Assembly (NCBI GenBank): GCA_018004935.1
Contig: JAGNBF010000012.1
Span: forward strand, 1-64,000
DNA length: 64,000 bases
DNA from: Chloroflexota bacterium
Lineage (GTDB): Bacteria > Chloroflexota > Anaerolineae > Promineifilales > Promineifilaceae
Direction: 5' to 3'
Shown here: in pieces, positions 4,426-59,695 of the stretch
How positions within the stretch are numbered: position 1 is the stretch's first letter
Layout of the letters: the number at the start of each line of letters is the position of its first letter
Notes under the pieces: model-generated
What the model was told of the DNA's origin: nothing
Database searches by the model: none
Seen by the model: only the letters and a program-made list of their open reading frames with translations
Made by a program: the position numbers and the translations under genes

Positions 4426-4455
4426 AAACCCGGCTTTTTCTCTCTGGAATTCCCC

Positions 4456-4975
4456 ATGGGCCTACGGCACACCCAGTGGGGTGAAAATCTGTAGGACGAT
4501 TTTTTAAATCGTCCACCGGGCGATTTACCAAATCGCCCTACATTTTCGCAGGAGTTCCCCATGGGCCTACGGCGCACCAAGGGGAATGAAAATTTGTAGG
4601 ACAATTTTGTAAATTGTCCACCGGGCGATTTACCAAATCGCCCTACATTTTCGCAGGAGTTCCCCATGGGCCTACAGCGCACCAAGGGGAATGAAAATTT
4701 GTAGGACAATTTTGTAAATTGTCCACCGGGCGATTTACCAAATCGCCCTACATTTTCGTAGGAGTTCCCCATGGGCCTACAGCGCACCAAGGGGAATAAA
4801 AATTTGTAGGACAATTTTGTAAATTGTCCACCGGGCGATTTACCAAATCGCCCTACATTTTCGTAGGAGTTCCCCATGGGCCTACAGCGCACCAAGGGGA
4901 ATGAAAATTTGTAGGACAATTTTGTAAATTGTCCACCGGGCGATTTACCAAATCGCCCTACATTTTCGTAGGAGA
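4456..4975 (+). repeat. 105-bp tandem array ending at the ychF ribosome-binding site
   Basis: The unit GTAGGACAAT... begins at 4491, 4596, 4701, 4806 and 4911, an exact 105-bp period, with a partial unit in front. Each unit reads: TAGGAG or CAGGAG; TTCCCC; ATG; a 12-codon open frame ending in TAG; hairpin GGACAATTT/AAATTGTCC; hairpin GGGCGATTT/AAATCGCCC; TACATTTTCG; then the next GGAG. The mini-ORFs start at 4456, 4561, 4666, 4771 and 4876 (for example MGLQRTKGNENL). The last unit stops right after TAGGAG, which serves as the Shine-Dalgarno of ychF 5 nt before its ATG. Similar arrays precede purA and the pentapeptide gene. Confidence 0.95.
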
Positions 4976-4979
4976 TACA

Positions 4980-6050
4980 ATGAAATTAGGCATTATTGGT
5001 TTGCCCAGTAGTGGCAAAACCACCATTTTTAACGCCCTTACCCGGGGCGATGCTCCGGTAGGGCAAAGCGTAAGCGGTCGTTTTGATGTATTAACATCCG
5101 TTGTTGATGTGCCGGATGAACGAGTTGGCATTCTCACAGCCATGTTCAAACCCGAAAAGACCGCCTACGCCAAAGTGATTTATACTGATATTGCTGGCCT
5201 GAAAAAAGGGATCGGTGAAAGTGGGGGGATGAGTGGCCCTTTACTCAATCATCTGGCCGCCCTGGATGGTTTTGTCCATGTAGTGCGGGCCTTTGCCAAT
5301 GATCAGGTAGCCCATCTGGAAGATACGATTGATCCGGCACGGGATCTGGCGACGCTGGATACGGAGTTTTTGCTTTCTGACCTGGTACTGGTGGAAACCC
5401 GTCTCACCCGGCTGAAGGAAGGGCTGAATAAATCCAAGGATAAAGTGGCGACACAGCGGGATATTGCCCTGATGGAACAACTCCATGCCAAACTTTCCGA
5501 AGAGCGTCCCCTGCGGGAGCTAGACCTGACTGAGGAAGAAGAAAAATCTTTGCGTGGCTTTGGTTTCCTGACGCTTAAGCCGGTATTGGTGCTTATTAAT
5601 GTGGGAGATGAACAGGCGGATGTGCCGCTGACTTATACGTTTGGCAAAAGCCGGGTGCTGAATTTACGCGGCCGCTTAGAAGCCGAACTGGCCCAACTCT
5701 CTGGCGATGATCTGGAAATGTTTATGACCGAATATGGGGTGACAGAACTGGGGTTGGCAAAGGTTATTCACGAAAGTTATGACCTGATGGGCCTGCAATC
5801 GTTCTTCACTGTGGGTGAGGATGAGGTACGTGCCTGGACAGTAGCTCGTGGGGCGTCGGCGGTGGACGCGGCCGCAACGATTCACACCGACCTGGCTAAA
5901 GGGTTTATCCGTGCCGAAGTGGTAGCCTATGCTGACCTGATTGAACTCGGCAGTATGGCAAACGCCCGGTCCCAAGGTAAACTGCGCCAGGAAGGCAAAA
6001 CCTACATCGTGCAAGATGGTGACATCGTGCATATTAAGTTTAATTTGTAG
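4980..6050 (+). CDS. ychF: YchF/OLA1-family GTP/ATP-binding protein
   Basis: This 356-aa Obg-related P-loop NTPase has the P-loop GLPSSGKT at residues 7-14, the Asp-Ile-Ala-Gly-Leu G3 segment, an alpha-helical hairpin insert, and a C-terminal TGS domain (about residues 270-356). YchF proteins bind ribosomes and prefer ATP. The usual N-V-G-K of the P-loop is S-S-G-K here, and the G4-position segment reads LVLINVGDEQ, so it is a divergent member. The start is the ATG at 4980, directly after the TAGGAG that ends the 105-bp array. A longer in-frame reading would run back through the repeat and is rejected. Confidence 0.92.
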   Translation: MKLGIIGLPSSGKTTIFNALTRGDAPVGQSVSGRFDVLTSVVDVPDERVGILTAMFKPEKTAYAKVIYTDIAGLKKGIGESGGMSGPLLNHLAALDGFVHVVRAFANDQVAHLEDTIDPARDLATLDTEFLLSDLVLVETRLTRLKEGLNKSKDKVATQRDIALMEQLHAKLSEERPLRELDLTEEEEKSLRGFGFLTLKPVLVLINVGDEQADVPLTYTFGKSRVLNLRGRLEAELAQLSGDDLEMFMTEYGVTELGLAKVIHESYDLMGLQSFFTVGEDEVRAWTVARGASAVDAAATIHTDLAKGFIRAEVVAYADLIELGSMANARSQGKLRQEGKTYIVQDGDIVHIKFNL

Positions 6051-6202: not shown

Positions 6203-6529
6203 GTAGTTTAAAAAATTAGTATCTTTGGGATTTCAGGGGGTTGACACCATCTGTAGGGGCAACCCTTGTGGTTGCCCTCGGCGGGGCAGGCACAAGGCCA
6301 GCCCCTACATGTAGCCGCACCCCACGAATTCCGAAAGAACCAAATTAATCAGGTAATGGCATCCCCCCACCCCTAACCCCGCCCCCAGGGGCGGGGAACT
6401 TTTCTAAGGGGCATTTTTCGGGGCGAATGCCCCGAAAAATGCCCCATGGGAATTCCCCCCTTCCCGTGGGCAGGGGGGCAGGGGGGATGGGGTCAATGAA
6501 TGCGTTACCCGATTAAAAATTTAATGAAT
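6203..6529 (+). mobile_element. MITE-like element B, interrupted by a second element
   Basis: The ends are imperfect terminal inverted repeats: TAGTTTAAAAAATTA(ATCAGGTAATGG) on the left and GTTACCCGATTAAAAATTTA on the right. The core is rich in CCCCACCCC and has a long hairpin around ATTTTTCGGGGCGAATGCCC. The copies at 10639-10795 and 63001-63196 are uninterrupted, which shows that the left end of this copy was split by the element at 6219-6341. Confidence 0.75.
6219..6341 (+). mobile_element. MITE-like element D nested in element B
   Basis: The termini GTATCTTTGGGATTTC and GAATTCCGAAAGAACC are imperfect inverted repeats around a hairpin with arms GGGGCAACCCTTGTGG and GGCACAAGGCCAGCCCC. It splits the left end of element B, with AAATTA present on both sides of the break, consistent with a short target duplication. 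Other copies lie at 8016-8149, 47930-48030 and 52160-52222. Confidence 0.7.
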
Positions 6530-8015: not shown

Positions 8016-8149
8016 CCTTGGGTCTATGGGATTTTGCGGGGTGATCGGTACTGTAGGGGCTGACCTTGTGCCTGCCCCGTCGAGGGCAACCACAAGGGTT
8101 GCCCCTACATCTGGTGTCAACCCCCTGACTTCCCAAAGAATCCATACCT
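8016..8149 (-). mobile_element. MITE-like element D, second copy
   Basis: The core hairpin GTAGGGGCTGACCTTGTGCC with GGCAACCACAAGGGTTGCCC, plus a terminus reading TTCTTTGGGAAGTCAGGGGG on the minus strand, matches the left half of the copy at 6219. It lies directly downstream of purA. Confidence 0.7.
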
Positions 8150-8175: not shown

Positions 8176-9468
8176 TTATATTCCCACAATCACCTGATCC
8201 CGATTTGGCCCTACCGAAACCAACGACACAGAAAGTCGGGTCTGATTGGCGACAAAAGTAATATAAGCCCGGGCGTTGGCTGGTAATTCGGCCAGGGTGC
8301 GGGCGGTCGTTATATCCTCTGACCAGCCGGGCAAAATTTCATACACTGGCTGGCAACGGGCCAATTGACGCAGGTCAGTAGGAAAATAATCAATACGGTG
8401 GCCGTCCAATGTATAGGCCACGCATACCGGAATTTCCGCCAGACCACTCAGAATGTCTAGTTTGGTGAGAGCCAGGGTGGTGAGGCCATTGATGCGCCGG
8501 GCATGGTTAAGAATGACCAGATCCAACCACCCCACACGTCGCGGCCGCCCCGTGGTAGTGCCATACTCATCCCACGGGTTACTGCCTGTGCCACGTAACC
8601 GCAACGCCTCAGCTCCCTCCAGTTCGGTGGGGAAGGGGCCACTGCCCACCCGGCTGGTAAACGCCTTGGCTACGCCTAACACCTGTTGCACGACCCCAGG
8701 CCCCACCCCTAACCCTACCAGCGCCCCACTGGCTGTGGGCGAAGAGCTGGTGACAAAAGGGTAGGTTCCATGATTGATGTCTAATAATGTGCCTTGCGCC
8801 CCTTCGGCCAGCACGGTTTGCCCTTGATGTAACGCTTCATCTAATAGGAGGGGGCCATTGGTCAGATAGGGGGCCAGCCGCTGGGCATAGGCGGCATACT
8901 CGGCCGCGATAACATCAGCATCAAGCGTGGGTTGGGCATAAATGCGTTCTAGTATCCGGTTTTTTTCCTGGATGTGTGTCTGCATGGCGTCCGCTAATTC
9001 TTCAGGTTCGGCAAAGAGGCCAACGCGTAACCCGGAACGGCTGGCTTTGTCGGTGTACGCTGGCCCGATGCCCCGCTGGGTAGTGCCGATGGCTTCGCGG
9101 CCGCGGATCGCTTCATTGGCTTTGTCCAGGGCCACATGAGCCGGAGTGATCAGATGGGCATTGGCGCAAATTTTCAACCGGGCCGGGCTGACATCCACGC
9201 CCCGCTCGGCCAGGGCATCTATTTCTTGCAATAACACCTTTGGGTTGAGCACCACCCCTGTCCCGATCAGGCACACCACTCCCTCATGAATAATGCCTGA
9301 AGGGATGAGATGTAGTTTAAAAATCTCCCCGTTGATCGTCAACGTATGTCCGGCATTATCGCCGCCACTATAGCGAGCCACGACATTCGCCTGCGCGGCC
9401 AATAAATCCGTTATCCGCCCTTTGCCTTCGTCACCCCACTGGGTTCCGACAATAATATTTAAAGCCAT
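8176..9468 (-). CDS. purA: Adenylosuccinate synthetase
   Basis: This 430-aa enzyme joins IMP and aspartate using GTP to make adenylosuccinate, the first committed step from IMP to AMP. The N-terminal loop GTQWGDEGKG (residues 8-17, catalytic Asp13), GGDNAGHTL with the catalytic His, GTTQRGIGPAYTDK, and the C-terminal KLDILSG GTP-base site are all present, and the length is normal. Its ATG is preceded by CAGGAG, which is the terminus of a 105-bp-type repeat (9477-9680) oriented with the gene. It lies downstream of no other purine gene here. Confidence 0.97.
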   Translation of the reverse strand: MALNIIVGTQWGDEGKGRITDLLAAQANVVARYSGGDNAGHTLTINGEIFKLHLIPSGIIHEGVVCLIGTGVVLNPKVLLQEIDALAERGVDVSPARLKICANAHLITPAHVALDKANEAIRGREAIGTTQRGIGPAYTDKASRSGLRVGLFAEPEELADAMQTHIQEKNRILERIYAQPTLDADVIAAEYAAYAQRLAPYLTNGPLLLDEALHQGQTVLAEGAQGTLLDINHGTYPFVTSSSPTASGALVGLGVGPGVVQQVLGVAKAFTSRVGSGPFPTELEGAEALRLRGTGSNPWDEYGTTTGRPRRVGWLDLVILNHARRINGLTTLALTKLDILSGLAEIPVCVAYTLDGHRIDYFPTDLRQLARCQPVYEILPGWSEDITTARTLAELPANARAYITFVANQTRLSVSLVSVGPNRDQVIVGI

Positions 9469-9476
9469 GATATTTC

Positions 9477-9680
9477 TCCTGCGTAAATGTAGGGCGATTT
9501 GGCAAATCGCCCGGACGATTTACCAAATCGTCCTACAGATTTTCTGGTGTGCCAAAGGCACATGGGGAACTCCTACGAAAATGTAGGGCGATTTTTTAAA
9601 TCGCCCAGTGGACGATTTAAAAAATCGTCCTACAGATTTTCATCCCTCTTGGTGCGGCCGCAGGCCCATGGGGGACTCCG
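9477..9680 (-). repeat. 105-bp-type repeat (about two units) ending at the purA ribosome-binding site
   Basis: Two degenerate units have the same order of parts as the arrays at 4456-4975 and 44431-44961. The unit next to purA ends in CATTTACGCAGGAG, 7 nt before the ATG. Both mini-ORFs are frameshifted: one by a deletion of about 8 bp near 9549, the other by extra bases that create a GCGGCCGC site at about 9655. It is therefore a decayed array that still supplies the Shine-Dalgarno sequence. Confidence 0.9.
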
Positions 9681-15883: not shown

Positions 15884-16669
15884 ATGTCACGATGGATTGA
15901 ACGGATTGACGCTGGCCCTGTAGTAACGTTGGCTTTGAACCGACCAGAGAGCCACAATGCCTTTAACCCGGAATTAATTGGGGAACTGACACTGGCTTTT
16001 CAGGCTGTGAGCCAGGATGAGACGGTACGGGTGGTGGTGTTGACCGGCCGCGGCCGCAGTTTTTGCGCCGGTGCGGATGTCAATTTTATGCGTGCGGCCG
16101 CGGATTTCACTTTTGCCCAAAATATGAGCGACGGTCAGGCCATCTTTGACCTGATGAATGTGGTTGATAGTTGTCCTAAGCCGGTTATTGGCCGGATCAA
16201 TGGGGCCGCCATTGGTGGGGGGGTGGGGCTGGTAAGCTGTTGCGACATCGTGGTGGCGGTCGAACGGGCTACGTTCGCCTTTAGCGAGGTGCGGTTGGGT
16301 ATCATCCCGGCGGTCATTTCCCCCTTTGTATTAGCTAAGATTGGCGTGGCTCAGGGGCGGGAGTTGTTCCTGACCGGGGAACGGTTTGCGGCCCATCATG
16401 CCCAACGTCTTGGTCTGGTGCATTACCTGGTAGCCGATGAAGTGGAACTCGATGCTAAGGTGCAGGAGCGGATAGAGCAATTATTACAGGCGGCTCCGGG
16501 GGCGATTGCGGCCGCGAAAAACCTCATCCGTACCGTAGCTTATCAGCCCAAGACCACCATGCGTGAAAACACCGCCACCCTCATCGCCCAGCGTCGGGCC
16601 AGTGAGGAAGGGCGTGAAGGCATGAGCGCCTTTCTAGAAAAGCGGAAACCGGGGTGGCAAGGAGAATGA
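15884..16669 (+). CDS. Enoyl-CoA hydratase/isomerase family protein, LiuC-like
   Basis: This 261-aa crotonase-fold protein has the oxyanion-hole segments SFCAGADVNFM (about residues 62-72) and GAAIGGGVGLVSCCD (about 107-121), followed by the SEVRLGIIPAVISPFV helix. Residues around ADVNFM resemble methylglutaconyl-CoA hydratases of leucine breakdown, but the specificity of crotonases cannot be read safely from sequence. The start is the ATG at 15884, behind GGAGG at ideal spacing; earlier in-frame ATGs lack such a site. No carboxylase or acyl-CoA dehydrogenase is adjacent. Confidence 0.88.
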   Translation: MSRWIERIDAGPVVTLALNRPESHNAFNPELIGELTLAFQAVSQDETVRVVVLTGRGRSFCAGADVNFMRAAADFTFAQNMSDGQAIFDLMNVVDSCPKPVIGRINGAAIGGGVGLVSCCDIVVAVERATFAFSEVRLGIIPAVISPFVLAKIGVAQGRELFLTGERFAAHHAQRLGLVHYLVADEVELDAKVQERIEQLLQAAPGAIAAAKNLIRTVAYQPKTTMRENTATLIAQRRASEEGREGMSAFLEKRKPGWQGE

Positions 16670-43817: not shown

Positions 43818-44423
43818 TTAAGCAGATAAAACCTCTTGTGATTGCTCTGGTTCATCAATAAACATACCCCCTACCAGTTCGCCATTCAACCCTTGGGGCC
43901 AGTGTGTCTGGCGGTTGTATTTACTCTTCTGTAGGTTGGCGTTTCGTACCATGGCCCGTGACAAATCGGTGCCGCGCAAATCGGTTTCGCTCAGATTCGC
44001 CCAATAAAGTTTAGCCCCCAACAAATTGGCTTCCCGTAGGTCCGCTTTACTGAGGTCAGAGGCCCCACGTAAGGTAGCCCTGGTTAAATTAGCTTGATAC
44101 AAATTGGCTCCACTAAGTTTGGTGCCATCTAGATTGGCCCCATGCAAATTGGCATCGGTTAGATTGACGCCCCCCATTTTGGCACTACGAAAGTCAGCAT
44201 AGGGTGCAATGACCCCCGCCAGGTTGGCTTTACTAAAATCAGCCTTGAAGAGATTCGCATTGGTCAGGGTAGCCCCTCTGAGATCTGATCCGGAGAAATC
44301 AACCTCACGTAAATCTAGATCGGAAAGATCCAGACCGCGTAGGTCTTTGTTTTTCAAGGAGATACGGCTACGGATGTGACGCATGGCACTGATGATGGTT
44401 TCACGGGTGATGGTCTCGGACAT
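43818..44423 (-). CDS. Pentapeptide-repeat protein
   Basis: This 201-aa protein has about 20 consecutive A(D/N)Lxx pentapeptides from residue 30 to 170 (for example LRGATLTNANLFKADFSKAN), predicting a right-handed quadrilateral beta-helix. The short N-terminal helix and the C-terminal tail lack known motifs. Such proteins can mimic DNA or bind gyrase, but most have no known role. Its ATG lies 6 nt after the TAGGAG at the end of the 105-bp array. Confidence 0.93.
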   Translation of the reverse strand: MSETITRETIISAMRHIRSRISLKNKDLRGLDLSDLDLREVDFSGSDLRGATLTNANLFKADFSKANLAGVIAPYADFRSAKMGGVNLTDANLHGANLDGTKLSGANLYQANLTRATLRGASDLSKADLREANLLGAKLYWANLSETDLRGTDLSRAMVRNANLQKSKYNRQTHWPQGLNGELVGGMFIDEPEQSQEVLSA

Positions 44424-44430
44424 GAGATAC

Positions 44431-44961
44431 TCCTACGAAAATGTAGGGCGATTTGGTAAATCGCCCGGTGGACGATTTACCAAATCGTCCTACAGATTTT
44501 CATCCCTCTTGGTGTGCCAAAGGCACATGGGGAACTCCTACGAAAATGTAGGGCGATTTGGTAAATCGCCCGGTGGACGATTTACCAAATCGTCCTACAA
44601 ATTTTCATCCCTCTTGGTGCGCCAAAGGCACATGGGGAACTCCTACGAAAATGTAGGGCGATTTGGTAAATCGCCCGGTGGACGATTTACCAAATCGTCC
44701 TACAAATTTTCATCCCTCTTGGTGTGCCAAAGGCCCATGGGGAACTCCTACGAAAATGTAGGGCGATTTGGTAAATCGCCCAGTGGACGATTTACCAAAT
44801 CGTCCTACAAATTTTCATTCCTCTTGGTGCGCCGTAGGCCCATGGGGAACTCCTACGAAAATGTAGGGCGATTTGGTAAATCGCCCGGTGGACGATTTAC
44901 CAAATCGTCCTACAAATTTTCATTCCTCTTGGTGCGCCAAAGGCACATGGGGAACTCCTGA
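44431..44961 (-). repeat. 105-bp tandem array ending at the pentapeptide gene ribosome-binding site
   Basis: Unit boundaries (TCCTACGAAA on the plus strand) fall at 44431, 44536, 44641, 44746, 44851 and 44956, an exact 105-bp period, five units. On the gene strand each unit reads TAGGAG-TTCCCC-ATG-12 codons-TAG-hairpin-hairpin. The mini-ORF next to the gene spans 44490-44528 and reads MCLWHTKRDENL; the others read MCLWRTKRDENL, MGLWHTKRDENL, MGLRRTKRNENL and MCLWRTKRNENL. The orientation relative to the gene is the same as for ychF and purA. Confidence 0.95.
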
Positions 44962-45025
44962 GAAAATAAGTTGCGAGTGACAAGTTTGCGGGTGGTAACT
45001 GAACGCTTACGGGCTGAACTCTTTT

Positions 45026-58879: not shown

Positions 58880-59084
58880 GGTTTGCCCCCAGGTAAGAAA
58901 AACATCTGTTTATCAAGTAATACACACCCCGCTGTCGGTTTAATAAAATTGAGATAGGTTGCGGCCCATCTTTGTCTATTGGGCATTATAGCACTGAGAA
59001 CCGCTGAGAAGTCGCCGAGTACATCAGGTTTAACCGCAAAACAATAATCTCAACGAACCTCGGCGATAACTCTGCGCCCTCAGC
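58880..59084. other. Upstream region of the lipoprotein and start of the 149-bp repeat area
   Basis: It is unique sequence with a degenerate partial unit of the 149-bp repeat (GAGAACCGCTGAGAAGTCGC) at 58995-59084. No gene is visible. Confidence 0.45.
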
Positions 59085-59669
59085 GTAATGTCTGGAATGT
59101 TGCCATTATAGTAACGCCGAGGGTCGCTGAGAAGTCGCTGAGAGACACAGAGACTTTACGTAGTTTGATTGCTCGTATGTCAATAAGTTATCCCTTCCTC
59201 AGCAACCCTCAGCGATAACTCTGCGTCCTCAGCGTAATGTCTGGAATGTTGCCATTATAGTAACGCCGGGGGTCGCTGAGAAGTCGCTGAGAGACACAGA
59301 GACTTTACGTAGTTTGATTGCTCGTATGTCAATAAGTTATCCCTTCCTCAGCGACCCTCAGCGATAACTCTGCGTCCTCAGCGTAATGTCTGGAATGTTG
59401 CCATTATAGTAACGCCGGGGGTCGCTGAGAGACACAGAGACTTTACGTAGTTTGATTGCTCGCATGTCAATAAGTTATCCCTTCCTCAGCAACCCTCAGC
59501 GATAACTCTGCGTCCTCAGCGTAATGTCTGGAATGTTGCCATTATAGTAACGCCGGGGGTCGCTGAGAAGTCGCTGAGAGACACAGAGACTTTACGTAGT
59601 TTGATTGCTCGCATGTCAATAAGTTATCCCTTCCTCAGCGACCCTCAGCGATAACTCTGCGTCCTCAGC
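59085..59669. repeat. 149-bp tandem repeat, four units
   Basis: Units begin with GTAATGTCTGGAATGTTGCC at 59085, 59234, 59383 and 59521, giving periods of 149, 149, 138 and 149 bp. The third unit lacks GAAGTCGCTGA. Each unit has GTCGCTGAG at one end and CTCAGCGA at the other, so it can fold on itself. A related fragment TTTTTCAGCGTCCTCAGCG lies at about 60160, on the far side of the GxxExxY gene. Confidence 0.9.
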
Positions 59670-59695
59670 GCACCCCCTCTGTATGCCTTACTGGG

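Follow-up and report, generated by a model that had tools for sequence, protein, structure and literature searches.

A small modular repeat, probably mobile, that lies 3′ of AGGAG and carries Shine-Dalgarno sequences in a Chloroflexota genome

The tandem repeats that precede three genes of the window (the whole stretch of DNA analysed, 64,000 nt) are, as read from their sequence, very probably copies of a small, apparently non-autonomous, modular mobile element. Insertion is strand-specific, 3′ of (A)GGAG, and the element has an AGGAG of its own at the right end. Features of the window are listed by position and strand.

4450-4974 (+): ychF array, five cargo-A units at 4450-4554, 4555-4659, 4660-4764, 4765-4869 and 4870-4974; left flank CTCTCTGGAA, right flank ATACA-ATG
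4870-4908 (+): constant head of one unit, TTCCCCATG-hairpin-CACCAAGGGGAATGAAAAT, by conservation in 206 units
4909-4961 (+): cargo A, two inverted hairpins tagged GTAG...CTAC, a REPIN-like pair also found in another carrier
4962-4974 (+): constant tail ATTTTCGTAGGAG with the Shine-Dalgarno sequence (SD) at its end, by 206 aligned units
4970-4974 (+): AGGAG, right end of the last unit and SD of ychF, 5 nt to ATG
4980-6050 (+): ychF, downstream gene, 356 aa (Pfam YchF-GTPase_C, MMR_HSR1, TGS)
8176-9468 (-): purA, downstream gene, 430 aa (Pfam Adenylsucc_synt, E 3.6e-170)
9476-9674 (-): purA array, 105 bp at 9570-9674 and 94 bp at 9476-9569; left flank CTTCACCGGAG, tail ACATTTACGCAGGAG
43818-44423 (-): pentapeptide-repeat gene, downstream gene, 201 aa (Pfam Pentapeptide)
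44430-44954 (-): pentapeptide array, five cargo-A units in front of the pentapeptide-repeat gene
44955-44979 (-): tail CACTCGCAACTTATTTTCTCAGGAG of a truncated cargo-C element, directly before the pentapeptide array, by comparison with cargo-C units

The three arrays and their orientation are real, as originally predicted, with limits that differ by a few bases. Each ends in AGGAG before the ATG of its gene. The ychF and pentapeptide arrays each consist of five units of 105 bp, followed by ATACA (spacing 5 nt) and TATCTC (6 nt), respectively; the purA array consists of two units, 105 and 94 bp, followed by AAATATC (7 nt). Matches to ACATTTTCGTAGGAG with at most 3 mismatches number 12 in the window vs 1.3 expected. 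Two element types are combined in a mosaic at the pentapeptide locus, where the truncated cargo-C tail adjoins the cargo-A array. By Pfam, the three downstream genes encode YchF, adenylosuccinate synthetase and a pentapeptide protein.

Other repeat classes are present in the window. A tandem array at 59049-59670 has a 149-bp unit (CCTCAGCGATAACTCTGCGTCCTCAGCG...GTCGCTGAGAGACACAGAGACTT). A very abundant repeat, TTTGGGATTTCAGGGGGTTGACACC, is present twice, at 6224-6248 (+) and 8113-8137 (-); dozens of copies of it occur in the genome sample, on both strands.

The unit is built of a constant head, TTCCCCATG-hairpin-CACCAAGAGGAATGAAAAT, an exchangeable palindromic cargo and a constant tail, ATTTTCG(T/C)AGGAG. 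Units are about 101-123 bp in length, occur in hundreds of copies and have a longest open reading frame of 12 codons. Cargo A comprises two GTAG-tagged hairpins (units of 101-106 bp), cargo B TATCCGTGTT repeats (114-115 bp) and cargo C a GCGAGTAGCGAGTGG palindrome (about 122 bp); rarer cargos occur too. The length of 105 bp originally given to the unit is thus not fixed. The same head and tail enclose unrelated cargo in the same genome, in the family and in another family of the class. The right-end AGGAG is conserved at 99-100% in 206 aligned units, internal units included. The left-flank AGGAG is conserved less, as expected of a target.

Some covariation is seen in the arms of the head hairpin, where the innermost pair is paired in 55 of 64 cases vs 27 shuffled. 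The GAAAAT/ATTTTC stem was rejected as a selected RNA pair, since no compensatory changes were found in it across 206 units. An Rfam search of the arrays and their relatives gave nothing above the gathering score, only weak chance matches of microRNA type and one weak CsrB match.

Each unit head (e.g. window 4865-4912) reads AGGAG-TTCCCC-ATG, followed by a short frame to the TAG of the first GTAG hairpin. The ATG is retained in 271 of 286 heads. This mini-frame could reflect leader-peptide translation or mimicry of an SD-ATG target. A conserved mini-ORF peptide is disfavoured, since the frame is lost where the hairpin differs in length and the ATG is often missing in relatives.

A second dispersed element, about 120 bp, bears the cargo-A hairpin pair between inverted ends, GGCRTGGTTCA...TGAACCATGCC, present in nearly all of the 37 copies listed. 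Examples in the same genome lie on contig C165 near 16328-16399 and on C53 near 4520. From these sequences, the cargo-A interior appears to move between carriers. On contigs C35, C121, C126, C157 and C197, cargo-A hairpins are broken at ...CAAA or ...TAAA by the repeat GGGTGTGTTTCATTTCAGTTGAGAGGAAGAAAAT or a near variant of it, as if another element targeted the cargo-A palindrome.

Left flanks are mutually unrelated, save for an (A)GGAG ending at the insertion point. For 41 non-redundant unique left flanks, all without a preceding element, the information at positions -5 to -1 is A 0.66, G 0.94, G 1.72, A 1.46 and G 1.72 bits; in the same flanks nothing comparable was found upstream of -5. 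Left-flank variants occur (GGAA at ychF, CGGAG at purA, AAGAG and AGGCG elsewhere), while the right end remains AGGAG; these variants are absent from the right end, and therefore no target duplication is copied.

Empty and filled sites confirm the position of insertion. A dispersed non-genic repeat of the same genome has an uninterrupted, empty copy, CCGGAAATCGCAGGAG-AATGGGCGAATC, reading ...CCGGAAATCGCAGGAG-AATGGGCGAATCAACTCATT...; in its filled copies, units totalling about 236 or 318 bp start exactly 3′ of AGGAG and end in AGGAG, followed by AATGGGCG. In another genus of the family, one gene is filled in two genomes (...CCCAGGAG/element/CACAGGAG/TTTGCC-ATG) and empty in two congeneric genomes (...CCAGGAG-AACTTACC-ATG or -AGTTTACC-ATG). 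The coding DNA of this congeneric pair is 95% identical; AGGAG occurs once in the empty and twice in the filled state. The spacers of the pair differ by 2 nt, which leaves the precise point of cutting within AGGAGAG uncertain by that much. Hence the target is the AGGAG motif, and at the SD of a gene the element's own AGGAG replaces it. Spread into translation starts, one of the origins first proposed for the arrays, is in this way borne out. A second congeneric pair was sought at three further loci and not obtained: L135 flanks were not alignable, the L141 gene was missing in congeners, and the L174 congener was too diverged.

The genome (7.98 Mb, 229 contigs, 96.6% complete) contains 258 exact CATTTTCGTAGGAG, with 0 in the reversed control, and 334 tails CATTTTCGYAGGAG. 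About 100 stretches around motif matches were merged with the window to a sample of 1.8 Mb, picked for containing the motif, so that its densities are not genome averages. In it 1333 genes were called by a hexamer model, with starts set without regard to SDs. A unit profile search of this sample gave 375 copies in 254 clusters, 0 of 254 of mixed strand. The tabulation of tail-to-start distances that had been proposed supports the position claim: 77 of 126 classifiable terminal ends lie 3-12 nt before a predicted gene start, all sense, 73 with ATG, with a spacing peak at 5-8 nt. Supply of the SD by the repeat accordingly holds in the three cases of the window and, in the sample, for these 77 ends, not for all. 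Another 45 of the 126 ends are intergenic, 4 lie inside predicted genes (sense), and 0 lie antisense within a gene. Many copies outside gene starts, or randomly oriented ones, had been named as evidence against the original prediction; about one third of the ends do lie away from gene starts, and none is antisense in genes. The count of 77 is low, because some intergenic ends are missed gene starts or run into element heads: among the 45, at least two stand 6-8 nt before the ATG of ORFs of 140 and 224 aa, and several are followed by a further head.

Random intergenic positions lie at SD position in 2.6% of cases and non-element AGGAG in 8.8% overall. Of SD plus intergenic positions, 63% of the element ends are at SDs vs 27% of background AGGAG. 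About two thirds of AGGAG motifs are in genes, yet only 4 element ends are. SD occupancy is above that given by AGGAG targeting and gene avoidance; an extra SD preference, or retention at SDs, may add to it. Predicted SD accessibility has a median of 0.40 for the element vs 0.35 for native AGGAG sites (p=0.18), a similarity that is consistent with little effect on translation. Among 81 downstream proteins of the sample, alignments total 16, weakly similar, chiefly receiver-type, SDR-like and a few others. Conserved housekeeping genes behind elements are, by Pfam, ychF and purA; further ones, read from N-terminal sequences, are presumably recR, gmk, plsX and transketolase.

Arrays grow locally, because array neighbours are more alike than units elsewhere. 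For cargo-A units with an array partner, the nearest relative is in the same array in 71 of 113 cases (2.4 expected), and the median divergence is 3.8% within arrays vs 9.8% between arrays. Expansion from translation starts, also part of the original prediction, agrees with these counts. Mosaic arrays mix different cargo types; therefore separate insertions occur too. Identical units are found at different loci, suggesting, from their sequence, recent spread.

Of 396 genomes of the class, 13 contain the frame ATGAAAAT-N-ATTTTCRYAGGAG, and its interiors show no relationship from one genus to the next; the reversed control never occurs. When a looser tail was allowed, three genomes of one other family of the class gave 16, 11 and 10 copies; copy numbers in relatives run from 0 to 16, against hundreds in the genome of the window. 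Families of the class other than that of the window enclose unrelated cargo in ATGAAAAT-cargo-ATTTTCNNAGGAG, often before start codons. Among relatives, 23 of 41 terminal ends precede the ATG of an ORF that is 80 aa or longer. Chloroflexi genome UBA6077 has the same head, AGGAGTTCCCCATG...GAATGAAAAT. Viral contigs gave 13 frame matches, rejected as chance because they are apparently coding and without palindromic cargo. A plasmid search gave no frame match.

The following course would account for these observations. The element inserts strand-specifically just 3′ of (A)GGAG, and copies would gather between the old SD, now the left flank, and the start codon, because sense-strand AGGAG in intergenic DNA is often the SD of a gene. 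The AGGAG borne by the element would become the new SD at normal spacing. As the new right end is again AGGAG, further elements of the same or other cargo could insert there, and local duplication would lengthen the arrays as well. A recombinase acting at the DNA level would presumably recognise the conserved ends (head hairpin ... ATGAAAAT and ATTTTCNNAGGAG), the cargo between them being exchangeable. Much of the SD enrichment would follow from purifying selection against insertion in genes and from tolerance at SDs, whose motif each insertion restores. One rule, with (A)GGAG as the target and AGGAG as the element's own end, thus explains position, orientation, arrays and SD supply. Such a recombinase may possibly act on a circular form, whose joint, AGGAG-TTCCCC-ATG, would mimic an SD-ATG site.

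Selection for function offers a different account: a cis-regulatory leader or riboregulator of a regulon, in which the SD is exposed or masked by the head hairpin and the GAAAAU/AUUUUC stem. The structured leader directly adjoins the SD, the innermost pair of the head hairpin shows some covariation, and the frame is conserved across the class. The account is nevertheless quite improbable: downstream genes have no common function, the stem is without compensatory change, the SD is as accessible as native AGGAG, copies lie in non-genic repeats, no Rfam family reaches threshold, and cargo is freely swapped. The original prediction had also allowed for a shared leader controlling the three genes jointly. 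The 81 downstream proteins are mostly unrelated, so that co-regulation is unsupported, and AGGAG outside genes is hit by the element as well. A purely local origin, in which each gene's own leader was duplicated in tandem and gene conversion spread the similarity, would agree with the lower divergence within arrays than between them, but the same sequence stands before unrelated genes, between unrelated flanks, and arrays are mosaics of different cargo types. As a sole explanation it is refuted by the empty and filled sites and retains almost no probability.

Insertion of a mobile element is thus the preferred reading, and known enzymes were weighed as its agent. A search of the genome with PF01797 gave one weak, atypical match, while control genomes matched as expected. 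This single Y1_Tnp ORF (31 bits) encodes a 385-aa protein (L031 655-1812, contig C65) that ends in a Y1 domain of IS200 type, preceded by about 280 residues without Pfam match. No catalytic Tyr was evident near its C terminus on our own reading of the sequence, and no element copies were seen in the 3.2 kb around it. It is possibly, to judge by its sequence, a domesticated transposase domain. No autonomous copy was found in 1.8 of 8 Mb; heads without a tail within 300 bp had no recognised transposase behind them and are truncated, interrupted or chance matches. An atypical fusion as the sole Y1 domain speaks against a RAYT or IS200-type enzyme. REPINs moved by a RAYT (REP-associated tyrosine transposase) are highly improbable here. 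The two inverted hairpins of cargo A do bear GTAG/CTAC tags like those of REP/REPIN (PMC3733652, PMC3116915), yet cargo A also occurs in a different carrier, and other cargos, which have no REP hairpins, share the same ends and insertion site. As a full account of the unit, a RAYT-driven REPIN was rejected: REP-less cargos share the ends, and no RAYT was found in the assembly, which is 96.6% complete. IS200/IS605-type single-strand transposition of a non-autonomous element, with GGAG as the left target, is a choice of enzyme within the preferred reading and is itself unlikely. IS200/IS605 elements choose targets in the same way, strand-specifically 3′ of a short target (PMC6006769); a variable target duplication is absent here, and a subterminal hairpin is present near the left end. 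Against it, no TnpA-like ORF beyond the atypical fusion was found, among heads no invariant guide tetranucleotide was seen 5′ of the hairpin, and the constant tail contains no hairpin. Membership in REPIN/RAYT or IS200/IS605 is not established, because the genome yields no mobilising enzyme.

Like MITEs and other small interspersed repeats, the element is short, high-copy, intergenic, mobile, apparently non-autonomous and without transposase coding capacity. Unlike MITEs, it has no clear terminal inverted repeats (TTCCCCATG... and ...ATTTTCGTAGGAG, by inspection of the sequence) and no target-site duplication copied from each target; it has one fixed left-flank motif and a fixed strand, and supplies an SD. 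Cargo A resembles REPIN/REP (GTAGGACG...CCTAC); unlike in those, GTAG hairpins are confined to cargo A and missing from cargos B and C, hairpins are exchangeable cargo, mobility follows head and tail, and no canonical RAYT was found in the genome. With IS200/IS605 it shares insertion on one strand, 3′ of a short fixed target, and the left hairpin; it differs in that no transposase was found and no constant guide sequence seen, and in a right end equal to the target motif, which is why arrays form. It behaves like a MITE or an IS200/IS605 derivative yet lacks some defining features of each, and works as a target-specific miniature element. In architecture it resembles BOX of Streptococcus (constant outer and variable inner modules, tandem, near genes; PMC3049150), but the tandem unit of BOX is the inner module, here the whole element, ending at the SD. 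The TAACTGA repeats of Beggiatoaceae (PMC4679880) are likewise genome-wide, mostly in one orientation and directly before start codons of unrelated genes. They are heptamers of little SD character, and SDs are rare there; the present element, by contrast, is structured, about 105 bp long and a source of the SD, and its sites are known both empty and filled. These heptamers, which are not SD-bearing elements, are the nearest published pattern found in the open-licence literature. No description of an element that both targets and resupplies the SD was found in that literature, and this behaviour appears undescribed.

The frame ATGAAAAT-N35-70-ATTTTCNNAGGAG provides a search handle for the recombinase. 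Small bacterial repeats are usually intergenic and have no fixed relation to the translation start. The insertion rule accounts for the survival of many insertions beside unrelated genes, conserved housekeeping ones included. It is possible, if somewhat doubtful, that the elements form a distinct class that finds a refuge at translation starts: a recombinase would read the SD core, the joined ends would resemble SD-spacer-ATG, the SD would be rebuilt, and the interior would swap palindromic cargo. Such elements would accumulate before essential genes at little cost. A mobile element can enter translation signals without destroying them, and 5′ leaders are thereby rewritten genome-wide.
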